This document shows positions 24,880 through 60,889 of a DNA stretch of 64,000 nt, one piece after another. A program made the position numbers and the translations under genes. The notes below the pieces were generated by a model. The model ran no database searches. It had not been told where the DNA came from and saw nothing but the letters and a program-made list of their open reading frames with translations. Source of the DNA: Lachnospiraceae bacterium (lineage in GTDB: Bacteria > Bacillota > Clostridia > Lachnospirales > Lachnospiraceae); NCBI GenBank assembly GCA_017542245.1, contig JAFXXN010000173.1:1-64000 (forward strand). Direction: 5' to 3'. The first letter of the stretch is position 1; every line of letters starts with the position of its first letter.

Positions 24880-25728
24880 TCAGTACATGAACCTGATACT
24901 ATCATATATTTCCTTGAAATTAATTCTACACTTACCATCCCAAATATTTACCTGAACCTTATCATCAAATGTGTATTCTACGGGATAGGGAGATTTTTCA
25001 AAAAAATAGACAATTACTTTCTTTGTTTCAGGAACTACCATCCAGTACTCCCTAACACCTGCGTTTTTATACTTATTTAGTTTGCGAATAGTATCGTGAT
25101 ACCAATTTGAAGGCGATACTACCTCTATGATAAAATCAGGTGCTCCGTAAATTCTTGCCTTAGTTACTTTGTTTTTATCACATACAACAAATACATCCGG
25201 TTCAACAACAGTTTTGTCATCACAGTCCAGTTGCACGTCCATAGGAGCGCAAAAAGCCATGCAAGATCCCTTATTAGCTCTTATATGATTGCATAATGAT
25301 GTCGCTATTTGAAGATTAAATTGCTGATGTATAGCTGTAGGTGAAGACATATCATAAAACACACCATCTATCAGTTCAACCCGGATATCATCCGGTAAAG
25401 CCAGATAGTCTTTGAGCGTCTTGTTGTGTTTATTTAAAGCCAATGCACTTGTCCCATCGGTAGCCAAATACTCGGCTTCATTTTCCTCTGTCCTACTTAT
25501 AGAATCTTTTTCTGCAATGTCGCAATTATAAGAATTCTCGACAGTAACATTTTCCTTTTTTCGTTCAAAAAATTTACTAAGAGCTTCAAGAGTGATTCTG
25601 CGAGGAGTATATGTAGTTCCGCTGAATACTTTCTGGATAGTACTTACCGGAACTCCGGCTTTTTCCGCTATATATTCATTAGAATAACCATAATCTTTTT
25701 TTATTTTTATCATTTCCCGAATAGTCAT
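24880..25728 (-). CDS. XRE-type HTH fused to a Uma2-family PD-(D/E)XK nuclease-like domain
   Basis: 282 residues. An N-terminal HTH (about 1-55: IAEKAGVPVSTIQKVFSG) is joined by a polar linker to a Uma2 (DUF820) domain from about residue 105. Nuclease-fold signatures VELIDGVFYD, VEPDVFVV and PDFIIEVVSPSN followed by RKLNKYKNAGVREYWMV are all present, so the PD-(D/E)XK core seems intact. Most Uma2 proteins lack the HTH. The start at 25728 has GGAGG nine bases upstream. The biological role of Uma2 proteins is not established. Confidence 0.82.
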   Translation of the reverse strand: MTIREMIKIKKDYGYSNEYIAEKAGVPVSTIQKVFSGTTYTPRRITLEALSKFFERKKENVTVENSYNCDIAEKDSISRTEENEAEYLATDGTSALALNKHNKTLKDYLALPDDIRVELIDGVFYDMSSPTAIHQQFNLQIATSLCNHIRANKGSCMAFCAPMDVQLDCDDKTVVEPDVFVVCDKNKVTKARIYGAPDFIIEVVSPSNWYHDTIRKLNKYKNAGVREYWMVVPETKKVIVYFFEKSPYPVEYTFDDKVQVNIWDGKCRINFKEIYDSIRFMY

Positions 25729-25881
25729 ATGATACGCGCCTCCATTATGAAAAATAACATAAATAAACACTTATCATCCATAAAAATACCATTTATTATA
25801 CACCATACAAATATAATGCCATATTAGTGCCATTTTGTCAATAAAAAACTCTATCAGCTTAGCAGGCGGTTTGTTTGTATG

Positions 25882-26074: not shown

Positions 26075-27298
26075 TTAATCCTCATAGCTTGACGATTCAT
26101 ATCCTCTTTCTATTAGATTTTTAACCATTCGATCCAATTTTTTCTTCCAAATATTTCTAAACCACCCTTTATCTCCAAACCACTTTACGAGTGTTGGACT
26201 AATGGCATAATAAAATCTAATAAATCCACGCCCATACCAAGTTTTTGAAAGACTGTAGTCACGAAATCTTCTTAAAGTCCATACTTCAGGGCAATCATAA
26301 CTTCCATAAACAGCAGTAGCTATATAGCAGCCTTTTTTACCATAAATATTAAATTGCGGATTTATCTGTCTGATTTTTGCTTTCCATTCATATATTTTCT
26401 GATTATTAGGTTTCAATATATTACTTTCTGGTCTAAAATACGAATACCTATTTGTACTTGGATTATATAAACAACCATAAGAATTATTAATATGTGTCGC
26501 AACAATAATCATACTATTATATTTTTCACAAGATTTTTCTGAGCTTATATTCAGCGAAAGCTGAATCAATTCTATAATTATATATCCTCTATCCATGAAA
26601 GACTTCCATTCTTCCTTTGTCGGATGAGGATCTGATTTATACTCTTTTAAAACAACATTTTCCCATGCTAATAATGCACTTGAATATATATAATCTCCGA
26701 TTTCTTTTGAGAAATCACCTGCTATTCCACCCCATTTAGATACTACTTCATAATTATATTTAGTAAGCAGAGAAATCTTTTCTTCTGTATTTTTTAAATT
26801 TGCTTTTGTAGGATTCGCAACAAAAGTATCACAACATAATTTTACAATCGAAATAAGAAAAGGTACCATATACTCTGAAGCATTCTTTTCTAATCTTGTT
26901 TTTTCCTGCTCCGGTGCATTTTCTATAGATTTTGTAAAACAGTTAATTACTTCATCTACACGCAAAAAATCTACCGTAGACTGCCTTCCAGCAGATTTTC
27001 CTTTTAAAAACCAAGCCATATAATCCTTTAAATCACTTTCAAGGATTTTATTACAATAACTTTCAGACTCTCTAAAATTATTTGACGCAAAGGCACTCTC
27101 AGCCATTTGATAGTAATTTACCAAACGCTCTGAATCATCGATTTTAACTGCACTACCTGAAACATCAACAACACCTTCAATTAAAAGTTTTTTCGCCTCT
27201 TCAAGAGTATATTTTGCTCCACAGAATTGACATACAAAAACACCATCTTGTTTAATAAGGTCAGAATTTCCACACATTTCACATCTTATCTGCTTCAT
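26075..27298 (-). CDS. Zinc-ribbon protein with TPR-like middle and CFI-box C-terminal domain
   Basis: 407 residues. The N-terminal zinc ribbon has CEMCGN...CQFCGAKY (four cysteines, residues about 6-28). A helical TPR-like region follows (YYQMAESAFASNNFRESESYCNKIL). The last 80 residues begin GCYIATAVYGSYDCPEVW and continue RRFRDYSLSKTWYGRGFIRFYY, which is the CFI-box-CTERM domain found at the end of many otherwise unrelated bacterial proteins. Its role is unknown. The ATG at 27298 has GGAG eight bases upstream. Confidence 0.75.
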   Translation of the reverse strand: MKQIRCEMCGNSDLIKQDGVFVCQFCGAKYTLEEAKKLLIEGVVDVSGSAVKIDDSERLVNYYQMAESAFASNNFRESESYCNKILESDLKDYMAWFLKGKSAGRQSTVDFLRVDEVINCFTKSIENAPEQEKTRLEKNASEYMVPFLISIVKLCCDTFVANPTKANLKNTEEKISLLTKYNYEVVSKWGGIAGDFSKEIGDYIYSSALLAWENVVLKEYKSDPHPTKEEWKSFMDRGYIIIELIQLSLNISSEKSCEKYNSMIIVATHINNSYGCLYNPSTNRYSYFRPESNILKPNNQKIYEWKAKIRQINPQFNIYGKKGCYIATAVYGSYDCPEVWTLRRFRDYSLSKTWYGRGFIRFYYAISPTLVKWFGDKGWFRNIWKKKLDRMVKNLIERGYESSSYED

Positions 27299-27346
27299 AT
27301 TCATTTCTCCTCTTATAAAAATATCCTATTCACTATTTTAGTATTT

Positions 27347-27811
27347 TCATTTATAGCTTTCAAATGCCTTCTTTAGCAAAGCATTTAGAATTAACTTAGA
27401 TTGTGGAACCTCATTAAATGCTAAGTATGAAGCTTCAAATGTTCCGTTTATTTTGTCTAGGACAAACTGTATTCTTGCCTTTACTTCTGTGTTCATATAC
27501 ATACAATAACCTGTAAACTCAACAACATCTAGATTTTCTTTCGCATTGTCTGCGTTCCCATTACCATCATTATTGGAGCCCTCTTGTGTTCCAACAAAAT
27601 ACTTCCATGTTGGAGATGAAAAGAATGATGTAAATGCTTGCTCATACGAAACATCCGGATACAAATTGGGATGCCCGCCTTTTACCATGAGTACATTCTC
27701 ATCATCTAAATCGAAAAAGTTCGCCGCTTGATCAGTAAAATCACTAAAATCACATCCTGACATCATTGCCATAATCATTATTATCAATAAAACATTAATT
27801 AGTCTTTTCAT
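27347..27811 (-). CDS. Small lipoprotein under the c-di-GMP riboswitch
   Basis: 154 residues. A signal peptide with lipobox MSGC is followed by an acidic region (DFSDFTDQAANFFDLDDENVLMVKGGHP) and a C-terminal domain of mixed strands (VVEFTGYCMYMNTEVKARIQFVLD). No family name is recognised. The ATG overlaps the HTH gene stop by four bases and has GGAAAGGAG upstream, so the two are translated from one mRNA. The product is a candidate c-di-GMP-controlled surface protein. Confidence 0.7.
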   Translation of the reverse strand: MKRLINVLLIIMIMAMMSGCDFSDFTDQAANFFDLDDENVLMVKGGHPNLYPDVSYEQAFTSFFSSPTWKYFVGTQEGSNNDGNGNADNAKENLDVVEFTGYCMYMNTEVKARIQFVLDKINGTFEASYLAFNEVPQSKLILNALLKKAFESYK

Positions 27812-28026
27812 GCCTTTTCTCCTTTCCCATATATCTTCCGCCAACCCTTATACTCTCCGGATTTTACTCTTGAATCAACCGGTCTTTCCATTTCCTCTGG
27901 GATTAGCCAAACCCTTCCTGCTCGTTCTGCTTCTGGAATTTTTCCCAAAGTACAGTATTGTGATACTGCCCTTATGGAAAGTCCCCATTTCTCAGCTGCT
28001 TCCTTTGTCGTCATATAGCCTTTCAT
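27808..28026 (-). CDS. Small helix-turn-helix (excisionase/MerR-like) protein
   Basis: 72 residues. MTTKEAAEKWGLSIRAVSQYC is a winged-helix first half of the MerR/excisionase type, followed by AGRVWLIPEEMERP, the usual beta-wing of HTH_17 proteins. A basic Lys/Gly tail ends the chain. The ATG at 28026 has GGAGG seven bases upstream. The gene sits directly behind a riboswitch and terminator. It probably binds DNA, but target and function are unknown. Confidence 0.75.
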   Translation of the reverse strand: MKGYMTTKEAAEKWGLSIRAVSQYCTLGKIPEAERAGRVWLIPEEMERPVDSRVKSGEYKGWRKIYGKGEKA

Positions 28027-28045: not shown

Positions 28046-28084
28046 AGTAAAAAAGCACTGTAGCCTTTAGGACTACAATGCTTT
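28046..28084 (-). terminator. Attenuator terminator of the c-di-GMP riboswitch
   Basis: On the minus strand AAAGCATTGTAG pairs with CTACAGTGCTTT (one T-G) and is followed by six T. It lies between the aptamer and the HTH ribosome binding site, so it can stop transcription before the gene. Confidence 0.85.
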
Positions 28085-28097
28085 AACAATCAATTCA

Positions 28098-28192
28098 GTA
28101 TAGGTGCAGCTGGCTGACATGAGAAAACATCCTTGTATTACTTTTAGTCCCTAAAGCTTTGCGTCACATCTTTTCAGATGTTTTGCTATAAT
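28098..28192 (-). ncRNA. Cyclic di-GMP-I (GEMM-I) riboswitch aptamer
   Basis: Read on the minus strand: a P1 pairing TATAG/CTATA, then GCAAAAC, a hairpin ACATCT-GAAA-AGATGT with the GNRA tetraloop, the invariant GACGCAAAGC, GGGACTAA and a closing GTCAGCCAGCTGCACC. These are the landmarks of the GEMM-I class in the right order and spacing. The G before CAAA, equivalent to G20 of the Vibrio Vc2 aptamer, favours c-di-GMP over cGAMP. It precedes the HTH-lipoprotein operon, with a terminator between. Confidence 0.9.
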
Positions 28193-28206
28193 TTTTTAAT
28201 ACATTG

Positions 28207-28235
28207 ATTATAAGCTTTATAAAGAAAAATGTCAA
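28207..28235 (-). promoter_or_regulatory. Consensus promoter of the riboswitch transcript
   Basis: TTGACA, a 17-base spacer and TATAAT on the minus strand. Transcription would begin just upstream of the aptamer. Confidence 0.85.
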
Positions 28236-35072: not shown

Positions 35073-35132
35073 AAGTTTTCGCGTCAATATGTCGATATAA
35101 TAATGTGTACTAATTTCAATCGGAGGTTTACT

Positions 35133-36428
35133 ATGGATAAAAGTATTGAAAACTATACCGTAGATGACATTGCAGGCTTGATAAAGGATAATACAGATGC
35201 CATTCTTATTGTGGATGCTTCTGCAGATATTTATAAATCTCTTAAAAGAACCGGAATTTTTTCCGATCTCATCGAACAGACCGGAAGCTATCACGAGCTT
35301 ATAGAAAAACTCTGGTTTCATTTAAACAAAACTATGGACAAGATTGCCGAAGATTATCAGGTATTTGTACCGACTTACGGTAAGTTCAGCGGCAAATACA
35401 GTAACCGCTTAAAGATTACTGTAAATGACGTTCCTCACGCTGTACAGATGACAGTATATCCCAAAAGGGACGACTTTTATATTTTAATCTTAGATGAGCT
35501 GGATACAAGCGAATATCTTAAGGATTTCTTCACAAACGAAAAAGTTACAACCATTCAGAACACCTATCTGTTTTCAATGTATATAGATCTTGCGAAGGAT
35601 TCAACAAGCAGTATAAGTGTTACGGAAATTTCAGATGAGACAATTCATTCAAGTGTTAAGTACTCTGAATGGAGAATGATGATTGTTAACATGATCTGGC
35701 CGGATGACCAGACCATGTTCTTAGAACGTACAGATCCCGAATATCTGAAGAAAAATCTCATGCCCGGACGTACTTCTTCTTTTGATTGCCTCATGCAGAA
35801 CCTTGAGGGAAAATACATCTGGGTAAAACTAATCTTCTCTCGTTCGGAAACCAATAACAGTGAGGAAGACTTCCGTTATGTATTCATGGTTCAGGATATC
35901 CACGAGAATTCCGTTCAGCTTATGTCTACCCTCAAAAAATATGAAGAGCTGGCTTCAAAAGATGCCCTTACCGATGTCTTCAATCATGGACGTATAGAAA
36001 CAGAGATCAATAACGCCATAGAAATTGTAGGCCGTACCGGCAGGTCTGTTTCAATGATGATGTTTGATATCGATTTCTTTAAGAATGTTAACGATAAATT
36101 CGGGCACGCTGTAGGCGATATGACACTCAAACACTTTACATATATGCTCAAAGACTACTTTAAGAACAATAATACCGTTATAGGGCGCTGGGGCGGAGAA
36201 GAATTCGTTGCTGTATGCTACGATGCCGATATCGAGACTGCTATAAGATACGCTGAAGAGATAAAAGAAAATATCTCCAAGGAAGAGTATAAAGTCGCCG
36301 GAAAGATTACCTGCAGTATAGGTATTACCGCCATAACCAACGAGGACAATTTCAGTTCTGCCTTTGAGCGTATGGACAAAGCGCTTTATAAGGCAAAGTC
36401 AGACGGCAGGAACTGTGTCCGTTATTGA
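35133..36428 (+). CDS. GGDEF-domain diguanylate cyclase
   Basis: 431 residues, no membrane helix or signal peptide. Residues 1-260 form a sensor region in which a PAS-like module precedes the catalytic domain (YIWVKLIFSRSETNN...VFMVQDIHEN). The GGDEF domain spans about 265-431, with DIDFFKNVNDKFGHAVGD and active-site GGEEF at about 354-358. The RxxD inhibitory site five residues before it is absent (NNNTVIGRW). GGAGG lies six bases before the ATG at 35133. It should make c-di-GMP from GTP. A c-di-GMP riboswitch lies 7 kb away. Confidence 0.9.
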   Translation: MDKSIENYTVDDIAGLIKDNTDAILIVDASADIYKSLKRTGIFSDLIEQTGSYHELIEKLWFHLNKTMDKIAEDYQVFVPTYGKFSGKYSNRLKITVNDVPHAVQMTVYPKRDDFYILILDELDTSEYLKDFFTNEKVTTIQNTYLFSMYIDLAKDSTSSISVTEISDETIHSSVKYSEWRMMIVNMIWPDDQTMFLERTDPEYLKKNLMPGRTSSFDCLMQNLEGKYIWVKLIFSRSETNNSEEDFRYVFMVQDIHENSVQLMSTLKKYEELASKDALTDVFNHGRIETEINNAIEIVGRTGRSVSMMMFDIDFFKNVNDKFGHAVGDMTLKHFTYMLKDYFKNNNTVIGRWGGEEFVAVCYDADIETAIRYAEEIKENISKEEYKVAGKITCSIGITAITNEDNFSSAFERMDKALYKAKSDGRNCVRY

Positions 36429-60671: not shown

Positions 60672-60716
60672 AAAGTACAATCTATACTGAGTTGCATACT
60701 CATCTGTTGTAGCTTT

Positions 60717-60881
60717 AGGTAGCGCTCCATCAAGAATGATGACAGTCAAAGGGCTGTTAACCCAATAACCAACCCCCATAGTTCAAGGAATATGAGGATT
60801 TCGGCATCTCATCCTTTCACTTTTCTTCTCCCATGCCTGACATGTCCGAAAAGCTACTGATAATCGATGCACCTCTACCAA
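60717..60881 (-). ncRNA. Lysine riboswitch (L-box)
   Basis: Read on the minus strand: GGTAGAGGTGC, then AGTA, GTGAAAGGATGAGATGCCGA, GGGTTGG, TGACTGTCATCATTCTTGATGGAGCGCTACC. P1 is GGTAG/CTACC with the GAGGTGC/GGAGCG-type core. These are the L-box landmarks in order. It lies in the dapA leader, whose product is the first enzyme of lysine synthesis. The 60568-60983 gap holds only this leader, its terminator, a further hairpin TTGCAC...GTGCAA at 60610-60640 and the promoter. Confidence 0.95.
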
Positions 60882-60889
60882 ACAACCGT

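Follow-up and report, generated by a model that had tools for sequence, protein, structure and literature searches.

A control cassette that recurs in Lachnospiraceae probably takes two inputs, one through a predicted operator in the promoter spacer and one through a c-di-GMP riboswitch of the OFF type, both placed ahead of a small HTH gene and a variable cargo gene. We describe it from one copy in the window (the whole stretch of DNA analysed, 64 kb). At low c-di-GMP the nascent RNA would, as computed, pair the inner strand of the aptamer with the left arm and loop of the terminator, giving read-through; when the ligand holds the aptamer together, the folds suggest that the terminator would form and the operon would be silenced. 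The HTH protein would bind the spacer of its own promoter, probably as a dimer, as conservation of the spacer and its co-divergence with the recognition helix suggest, and most likely represses this promoter, to judge from the near-consensus promoters. The cargo of the window copy would be a lipoprotein whose start overlaps the stop of the HTH gene. As riboswitch and HTH gene stand together ahead of unrelated cargo in a group of Lachnospiraceae, we regard the pair as a standard cassette for control and not as a switch for one gene.

The Locus in the Window

The sequence-only reading had described a consensus promoter, a GEMM-I aptamer and a terminator with six T within 190 bases, followed by an HTH gene and an overlapping lipoprotein gene, and all these elements are present, the lipoprotein as a prediction. 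Its observation named no strand; all elements lie on the minus strand. It missed the element in the promoter spacer, the genus-wide recurrence of the riboswitch-HTH pair and the A at the selectivity base of the aptamer. The covariance search with RF01051 that it had proposed gave a score well above the gathering threshold. The features, all on the minus strand, are as follows.

28235-28207, minus: sigma-A-type promoter TTGACA-17-TATAAT, 12/12 consensus bases
28213..28229, minus: proposed HTH operator in the 17-bp spacer, an element common to HTH promoters with and without riboswitch
28224-28215, minus: perfect 10-bp palindrome CTTTATAAAG, read from the sequence, spacer positions 6-15, centre 10.5
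28197-28102, minus: c-di-GMP-I (GEMM-I) aptamer, RF01051, 62.4 bits (gathering 35), E 8.1e-10, model 1-87
28156-28145, minus: predicted antiterminator 5' strand CTTTAGGGACTA within the aptamer, from duplex energy and the minimum-energy fold of 132-146-nt transcripts
28084-28052, minus: intrinsic terminator hairpin plus six T, 14 pairs, −17.9 kcal/mol
28075-28065, minus: predicted antiterminator 3' strand TAGTCCTAAAG within the terminator, from duplex energy and transcript folds
28039-28034, minus: Shine-Dalgarno sequence AGGAGG of the HTH gene, from the sequence
27808-28026, minus: small HTH protein, 72 aa, ATG at 28026, HTH_59/HTH_17, excisionase-like (Pfam, PHROG)
27347-27811, minus: cargo, 154-aa predicted lipoprotein, start overlapping the HTH stop as ATGA, from the sequence
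26075-27304, minus: possible third gene, zinc-ribbon/TPR-like with CFI-box-CTERM domain (NCBIfam NF041770, E 6.5e-21)

None of 200 shuffles of the terminator folds equally well. The hairpin starts 17 nt past the aptamer, and the 3' strand of the aptamer is not part of it. The 190-nt stretch as a whole, the first ~35 nt of which are promoter and not RNA, has no clear excess of stability (z −1.5; 13/200 shuffles as stable). A second copy of the promoter within 3 mismatches was not found in the window. The only other Rfam match at gathering score in the window is a lysine riboswitch (60712-60885, minus strand, 108.8 bits, gathering 30).

The stop of the HTH gene (TGA, 27810-27808) overlaps the ATG of the lipoprotein gene (27811-27809). 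The predicted lipoprotein (27347-27811) has a lipobox-like MKRLINVLLIIMIMAMMSGC, recognized by eye, in which a residue other than the usual Leu stands at −3; it has no Pfam match up to E 0.1 and no NCBIfam match up to E 0.001, and in 24 genus genomes a match was found in one, its own. The third gene begins 42 nt downstream of the lipoprotein gene, and its product (26075-27304) has weak Pfam zinc-ribbon and TPR matches. Since a promoter-like site with 10/12 consensus bases (27363-27335) precedes it, this gene may or may not share the transcript. Near the module, at 24880-25770 of the window, lies a gene for a Uma2 plus HTH_3 protein.

A Recurrent Riboswitch-HTH Pair

In the genome of the window there are five GEMM-I sites, and all five lie ahead of an HTH gene of the same kind, one of which is broken (L002). 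Locus L002 (1501-1919) is a near-copy of the window promoter-riboswitch region; its HTH frame breaks off some ten codons in and continues as a zinc-ribbon/TPR-like frame. The 24 genus genomes together hold 32 GEMM-I matches (31 above cut-off), distributed over 11 genomes, and 14 of the 32 lead an HTH gene, the broken one included. Conversely, 13 of the 14 HTH copies of at least 110 bits in these genomes stand directly behind a GEMM-I riboswitch; the remaining copy comes fourth in an operon headed by another such riboswitch (L022). This set favours riboswitch-led copies, since these were the source of both the HTH profile (A1) and the seed model. The stand-alone genus homologues L234 and L238 (~58 bits) have no riboswitch, and directly behind six genus riboswitches with separate terminators, and behind L022, there is no HTH gene. 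Part of the riboswitch count of genome G000 may come from a relative, since G000 shows 8.6% contamination. Two species-level genomes of the genus carry loci, L004 and L026, that are 96.3% identical over 2.5 kb.

Outside the genus the link is rarer. An HTH gene stands behind 2 of the best-scoring 141 GEMM-I stretches of other genera, and 5 of the best 29 out-of-genus HTH loci are riboswitch-led, two of them known from coordinates. The HTH family itself is common: among 298 genomes drawn from the bacterial family of the window, 180 have a match at E 1e-12. Six of seven named relatives are uncultured Lachnospiraceae, and two are labelled as from goat omasum and water-buffalo rumen; the seventh, Candidatus Limicola (L250), has the HTH gene without GEMM-I. 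In other genera of the family GEMM-I aptamers also occur in tandem, as two or three copies (L093 on G241:C26, L072, L079, L127).

The cargo behind the HTH gene changes from locus to locus. Family matches were obtained for a dynamin-like GTPase, a polysaccharide deacetylase, an SPFH protein, a Uma2 protein and an esterase; a GH3-like enzyme and an ABC transporter were recognized by eye alone. The Uma2 protein is encoded at 6-890 of riboswitch locus L012, behind the HTH gene. The distances between aptamers correlate with the distances between HTH proteins, within the genus (Mantel r 0.53, p 0.0006, n = 11) and with other genera included (r 0.45, p 0.0001, n = 16), and for this reason the riboswitch-HTH pair appears to behave as a unit with changing cargo. 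One protein in these comparisons, that of L009, carried a stray residue introduced when its start was restored.

A Predicted Operator Between −35 and −10

A generic word search of the upstream regions gave nothing above shuffles, and the spacer element appeared only upon aligning the promoters. In the 14 riboswitch-led HTH promoters found, two of which (L004 and L026) are near-duplicates, the 17-bp spacer has C at position 6 in 14/14, T or G at position 5 in 14/14 and G at position 15 in 13/14. Among other GEMM-I promoters C6 occurs in 11/68. The window spacer keeps C6 and G15 but has T instead of the usual G at position 7. At 5 of the 19 riboswitch-led HTH loci (L008, L009, L010, L012, L029) there was no promoter within the thresholds.

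If the HTH protein binds the spacer, homologues without a riboswitch should therefore carry the element as well, and this prediction was tested. From 37 homologues without GEMM-I in front, 26 promoters with at least 10/12 consensus bases and a 17-bp spacer were drawn, and 25 of them have C6; after removal of those of at least 70% identity the count was 16/17. When promoters of at least 9/12 were admitted, 28 of 30 riboswitch-free homologues had C6, with L236 lacking the motif. Seven of the 37 had no promoter or a 16-bp spacer. Control promoters, which are sequence matches and not mapped starts, have C6 in 33/189 (at least 10/12) and 121/652 (at least 9/12). In a smaller control set C6 was present in 7/17 promoters (Fisher 0.0025 for [TG]C), and in 4/14 once L252, L258 and L274, true promoters of riboswitch-led HTH genes, were taken out.

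Positions 6 and 15 are complementary in a fraction of 0.72 of the HTH promoters versus 0.25 of the controls. Dyad symmetry about centre 10.5 is 0.40 versus 0.25 in controls, and about centre 6.5 it is equally raised (0.43 versus 0.26), so that either centre may be that of the dimer site. The distance between recognition helices correlates with that between spacers (r 0.52, n = 42; 0 of 10,000 permutations), and after removal of the rest of the protein a partial r of 0.39 is left; L222, L224 and L236 were part of this set. Because recognition helix and spacer co-diverge, we propose that the HTH protein probably autoregulates through the predicted spacer operator in its own promoter. Repression is the likelier sign, since the HTH promoters are near consensus. 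Another candidate operator, the inverted repeat GCCACC-N-GGTGGC upstream of L005 (imperfect at L003), was rejected because it is found at one genome site only.

Domains of the same HTH family also open frames of ~560-640 aa (L219, L221, L237, L218, L235), which by eye look ATPase-like. Their promoter spacers contain TTCGGAA/TTCGAA-like elements, with further copies upstream in several of them.

Relay to Other Genes

The sequence-only reading had suggested that c-di-GMP may be relayed by the HTH protein to further genes. In a narrow form this stood: there is a likely operator in the HTH gene's own promoter, and similar elements are present in some sister riboswitch promoters. The wider regulon was not found by two pattern searches of the own genome, where the patterns match little beyond riboswitch promoters; these two patterns lend a global regulon no support. 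The second pattern has four exact matches there, three riboswitch promoters and the promoter of one other HTH gene, an HTH-ATPase-like fusion gene without riboswitch; with one mismatch allowed there were 15 matches, against 12 when the pattern was reversed as a control. In the 24 genomes the first pattern matched 20 times and its reversed control twice. Seven of these lie at GEMM-I promoters; at the other 13 loci no riboswitch was found at gathering score.

The sequences would allow a relay among sister riboswitch operons. C6 together with G15 occurs in 4 of 10 GEMM-I promoters of the genus that are not HTH-led, versus 2 of 58 in other genera (Fisher 0.003). The genomes of all four encode an HTH copy as well, and one of the four, L022, has the HTH gene further down its own operon. 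We tentatively extend the proposal, while thinking it rather doubtful, to a portable c-di-GMP/HTH module in which riboswitch and HTH gene would move and co-evolve as a unit, the cargo would vary and the HTH proteins would act in trans on matching sister promoters. If this is true, one messenger would be sensed by RNA and then once more by a family of repressors acting at promoter spacers, and the recognition helix would predict the operator.

Direction of the Switch

The pairing of aptamer and terminator with one bulged G, which had been noticed by eye, was reproduced by calculation (−15.9 kcal/mol), and so was the OFF direction, in which the ligand silences the operon; for this direction the support is computational. 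Against the same terminator the window pairing (28156-28145 with 28075-28065) beats 16 of 16 other aptamers, and 1 of 500 single-base shuffles of the terminator stretch equals it (p = 0.002). Growing transcripts were folded from an assumed start at ~28200, taken from the position of the promoter. Three P3 pairs were tracked: their probability is 0.59-0.73 at 92-100 nt, 0.00 from 122 nt and 0.00-0.05 at 132-146 nt. Over this last range the fold of lowest energy is the antiterminator (mean pair probability 0.41-0.78), and at 150 nt it has given way to the terminator (mean pair probability 0.91). In these models the expression platform alternates with the aptamer, in that the antiterminator uses aptamer bases and the fold switches between 146 and 150 nt. 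Because in growing transcripts the antiterminator forms first and the terminator later, the ligand should turn the operon off. Once the transcript is complete, forcing the terminator gives a more stable fold (−36.7 kcal/mol) than forcing the antiterminator (−29.3 kcal/mol), and the antiterminator would therefore have to act transiently.

Native aptamer-terminator pairings are also stronger than re-dealt ones elsewhere, with p 0.0012 for 10 HTH-led loci and p 0.0042 for 17 loci. In a swap test of 18 of the 21 genus loci with separate terminators (L007, L010 and L026 were left out), native sets cross-pair with 18.9 and swapped sets with 15.0 pairs (p < 0.0001, 20,000 permutations). The native aptamer came first in just 4 of the 18 loci; that of the window came second and that of L004 13th. 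In a narrower duplex test the pairing at L003, L007, L018, L028 and L030 was no better than in shuffles. The window locus (L001) and its paralogue L002 differ by three substitutions in the hairpin, each of which, compared by eye, keeps a standard terminator or antiterminator pair.

The terminator is separate from the aptamer in 14/14 HTH-led genus loci. The 16 other genus loci comprise 6 with a separate, 9 with an overlapping and 1 with a weak terminator (Fisher 0.0007 without the weak one). In the nine (L011, L013, L014, L015, L016, L019, L020, L024, L025) the 3' strand of the aptamer is the left arm of the terminator. Since this layout is the opposite one, ON-type and OFF-type layouts coexist in the genus.

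That the window riboswitch itself is an ON switch, with c-di-GMP promoting read-through as in the GEMM-I loci with overlapping terminators, is unlikely. The ON-type layout, with the 3' strand of the aptamer as left arm of the terminator, accounts for 9 of the 30 classified genus loci, and the greater stability of the terminator fold on the full transcript fits an ON switch as well. The Bc1 riboswitch of B. thuringiensis loses terminator structures on c-di-GMP binding, as observed by SHAPE-MaP, and has its ribosome-binding site trapped once c-di-GMP is bound (PMC11218506). The window terminator, however, does not share the 3' strand of the aptamer, 17 nt away, and the alternative pairing uses up the P3 strand of the aptamer, as the near-zero P3 probabilities at 132-146 nt indicate. 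We therefore retain the OFF direction.

The Ligand

In the RF01051 alignment the base equivalent to G20 of Vc2 is an A, at 28187 (model position 11). An A at this position is present in 8/14 HTH-led versus 3/16 other genus loci (Fisher 0.057) and in 16 of the best-scoring 141 GEMM-I stretches of other genera. Kellenberger in 2015 and Nelson in 2015 reportedly found G20 to go with a preference for c-di-GMP and A20 with one for cGAMP. The window thus has the base that marks GEMM-Ib, by a rule that we do not take as sufficient. The A raises the question whether the ligand could be 3',3'-cGAMP (GEMM-Ib-like) instead of c-di-GMP, a reading that is supported by the A in the window and by its frequency in the HTH-led loci, and which we nevertheless consider improbable. 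According to one study, the Vc2-20 position is a selectivity factor and no hard filter (PMC9262584). Versions of the aptamer with A and with G coexist in the own genome ahead of the same HTH family, which argues against cGAMP.

The synthases point in the same direction. Hypr enzymes have Ser at the guanine-contact position of the GGDEF domain. The own genome has 35 GGDEF matches, of which all but the five weakest were read at this position; the 30 comprise 27 Asp and 3 Asn, and a Ser was absent. A search with the SMODS family found no SMODS-type synthase in the own genome at E 0.01 or better. The second mark of GEMM-Ib, a cGAMP synthase of the Hypr GGDEF or CD-NTase kind in the genome, was accordingly not seen in the 30 of 35 GGDEF domains and the SMODS search, and the cGAMP reading is weakened by both results. 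About 7 kb from the riboswitch, at 35103-36428 on the plus strand, a GGDEF protein with Asp at the guanine-contact position is encoded, which is likely a diguanylate cyclase. Even with an A as the selectivity base, c-di-GMP is more likely to be the ligand than cGAMP.

The HTH Protein

The HTH protein matches Pfam HTH_59 (35.3 bits, gathering 27, E 1.1e-8) and HTH_17 (32.2 bits, gathering 27, E 1.3e-7), the domain covering residues 4-48 of 72. Its only PDB sequence match below E 0.1 is the C-terminal end of k-cTRP5 (8etq_A, E 2.5e-6), which covers residues 31-62. As far as our searches of the open-access literature show, this small HTH family is uncharacterised.

Could the HTH protein be loaded at the promoter as an antiterminator of the lambda-Q/AlpA kind and override the riboswitch terminator, giving a latch? 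AlpA likewise has its binding element in the stretch that separates −35 from −10, and it lets transcription pass intrinsic terminators further downstream (PMC7969949, PMC9371919); the separate terminators in 14/14 HTH-led genus loci would suit such a role. The same spacer element is, however, present in riboswitch-free homologues, the gap between promoter and gene at L237 is just ~30 nt, and the 72-aa protein is little beyond its HTH domain, whereas in AlpA an N-terminal segment forms a ring in the RNA exit channel. An AlpA chain was not among the PDB sequence matches of the HTH protein. We consider such an antiterminator very improbable and keep to a probable repressor.

The description of the protein as excisionase-like held as sequence similarity, its best phage-family match being a PHROG excisionase (PHROG 2655, E 8.4e-10), but a scan of 16 ORFs from 20 to 38 kb showed no integrase or recombinase. 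That the protein serves a mobile element as a genuine excisionase (recombination directionality factor) and is under the riboswitch incidentally is hardly credible: L001 and L002 do share promoter, riboswitch and first HTH codons and then diverge, but besides the missing integrase the family-matched cargo consists of GTPase, SPFH, deacetylase, Uma2 and esterase proteins, not of transfer genes.

Comparison with Known Systems

Among the closest known systems is Cd1 upstream of flgB in C. difficile, an OFF switch acting via a transient antiterminator (PMC9262584); the window shares with it the class-I aptamer, the terminator and, as computed, the OFF direction through a transient antiterminator. 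Unlike Cd1, the window riboswitch has a small HTH gene and variable cargo as target rather than flagellar genes, has A as selectivity base and is preceded by a promoter with a proposed HTH operator.

TfoY of Vibrio cholerae presumably is, by family, a different protein from the window HTH. In Vc2-tfoY a bound class-I c-di-GMP riboswitch likewise limits the production of a regulator; unlike the window riboswitch, Vc2 restricts translation, and the accessible text describes no repeated riboswitch-regulator cassette (PMC7371385). The cmrRST system of C. difficile also has a c-di-GMP riboswitch ahead of a self-controlling regulator, but the riboswitch is of class II, the direction is positive, the regulators are response regulators, and the positive autoregulation works through TSS4, a promoter distinct from that of the riboswitch (PMC8844915).

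With AlpA of P. aeruginosa and lambda-type Q proteins the module shares an element between −35 and −10 with a terminator downstream; unlike them, the window HTH has no room for an RNA-exit-channel part, and no sequence relation was seen. With the small excisionase-like and MerR-type HTH proteins (HTH_59, HTH_17; PHROG 2655) the window HTH shares the sequence family; unlike these it sits behind a riboswitch, with no recombinase seen nearby.

In titles and abstract starts of the open-access literature we found no description of the pairing of a c-di-GMP riboswitch with such an HTH gene. Regulators under c-di-GMP riboswitches are already known from tfoY and cmrRST. New is the element within the spacer, inside −35/−10, that is common to the HTH promoters; it offers a testable code between recognition helix and operator for a common group of small HTH proteins that extends far past those with a riboswitch.
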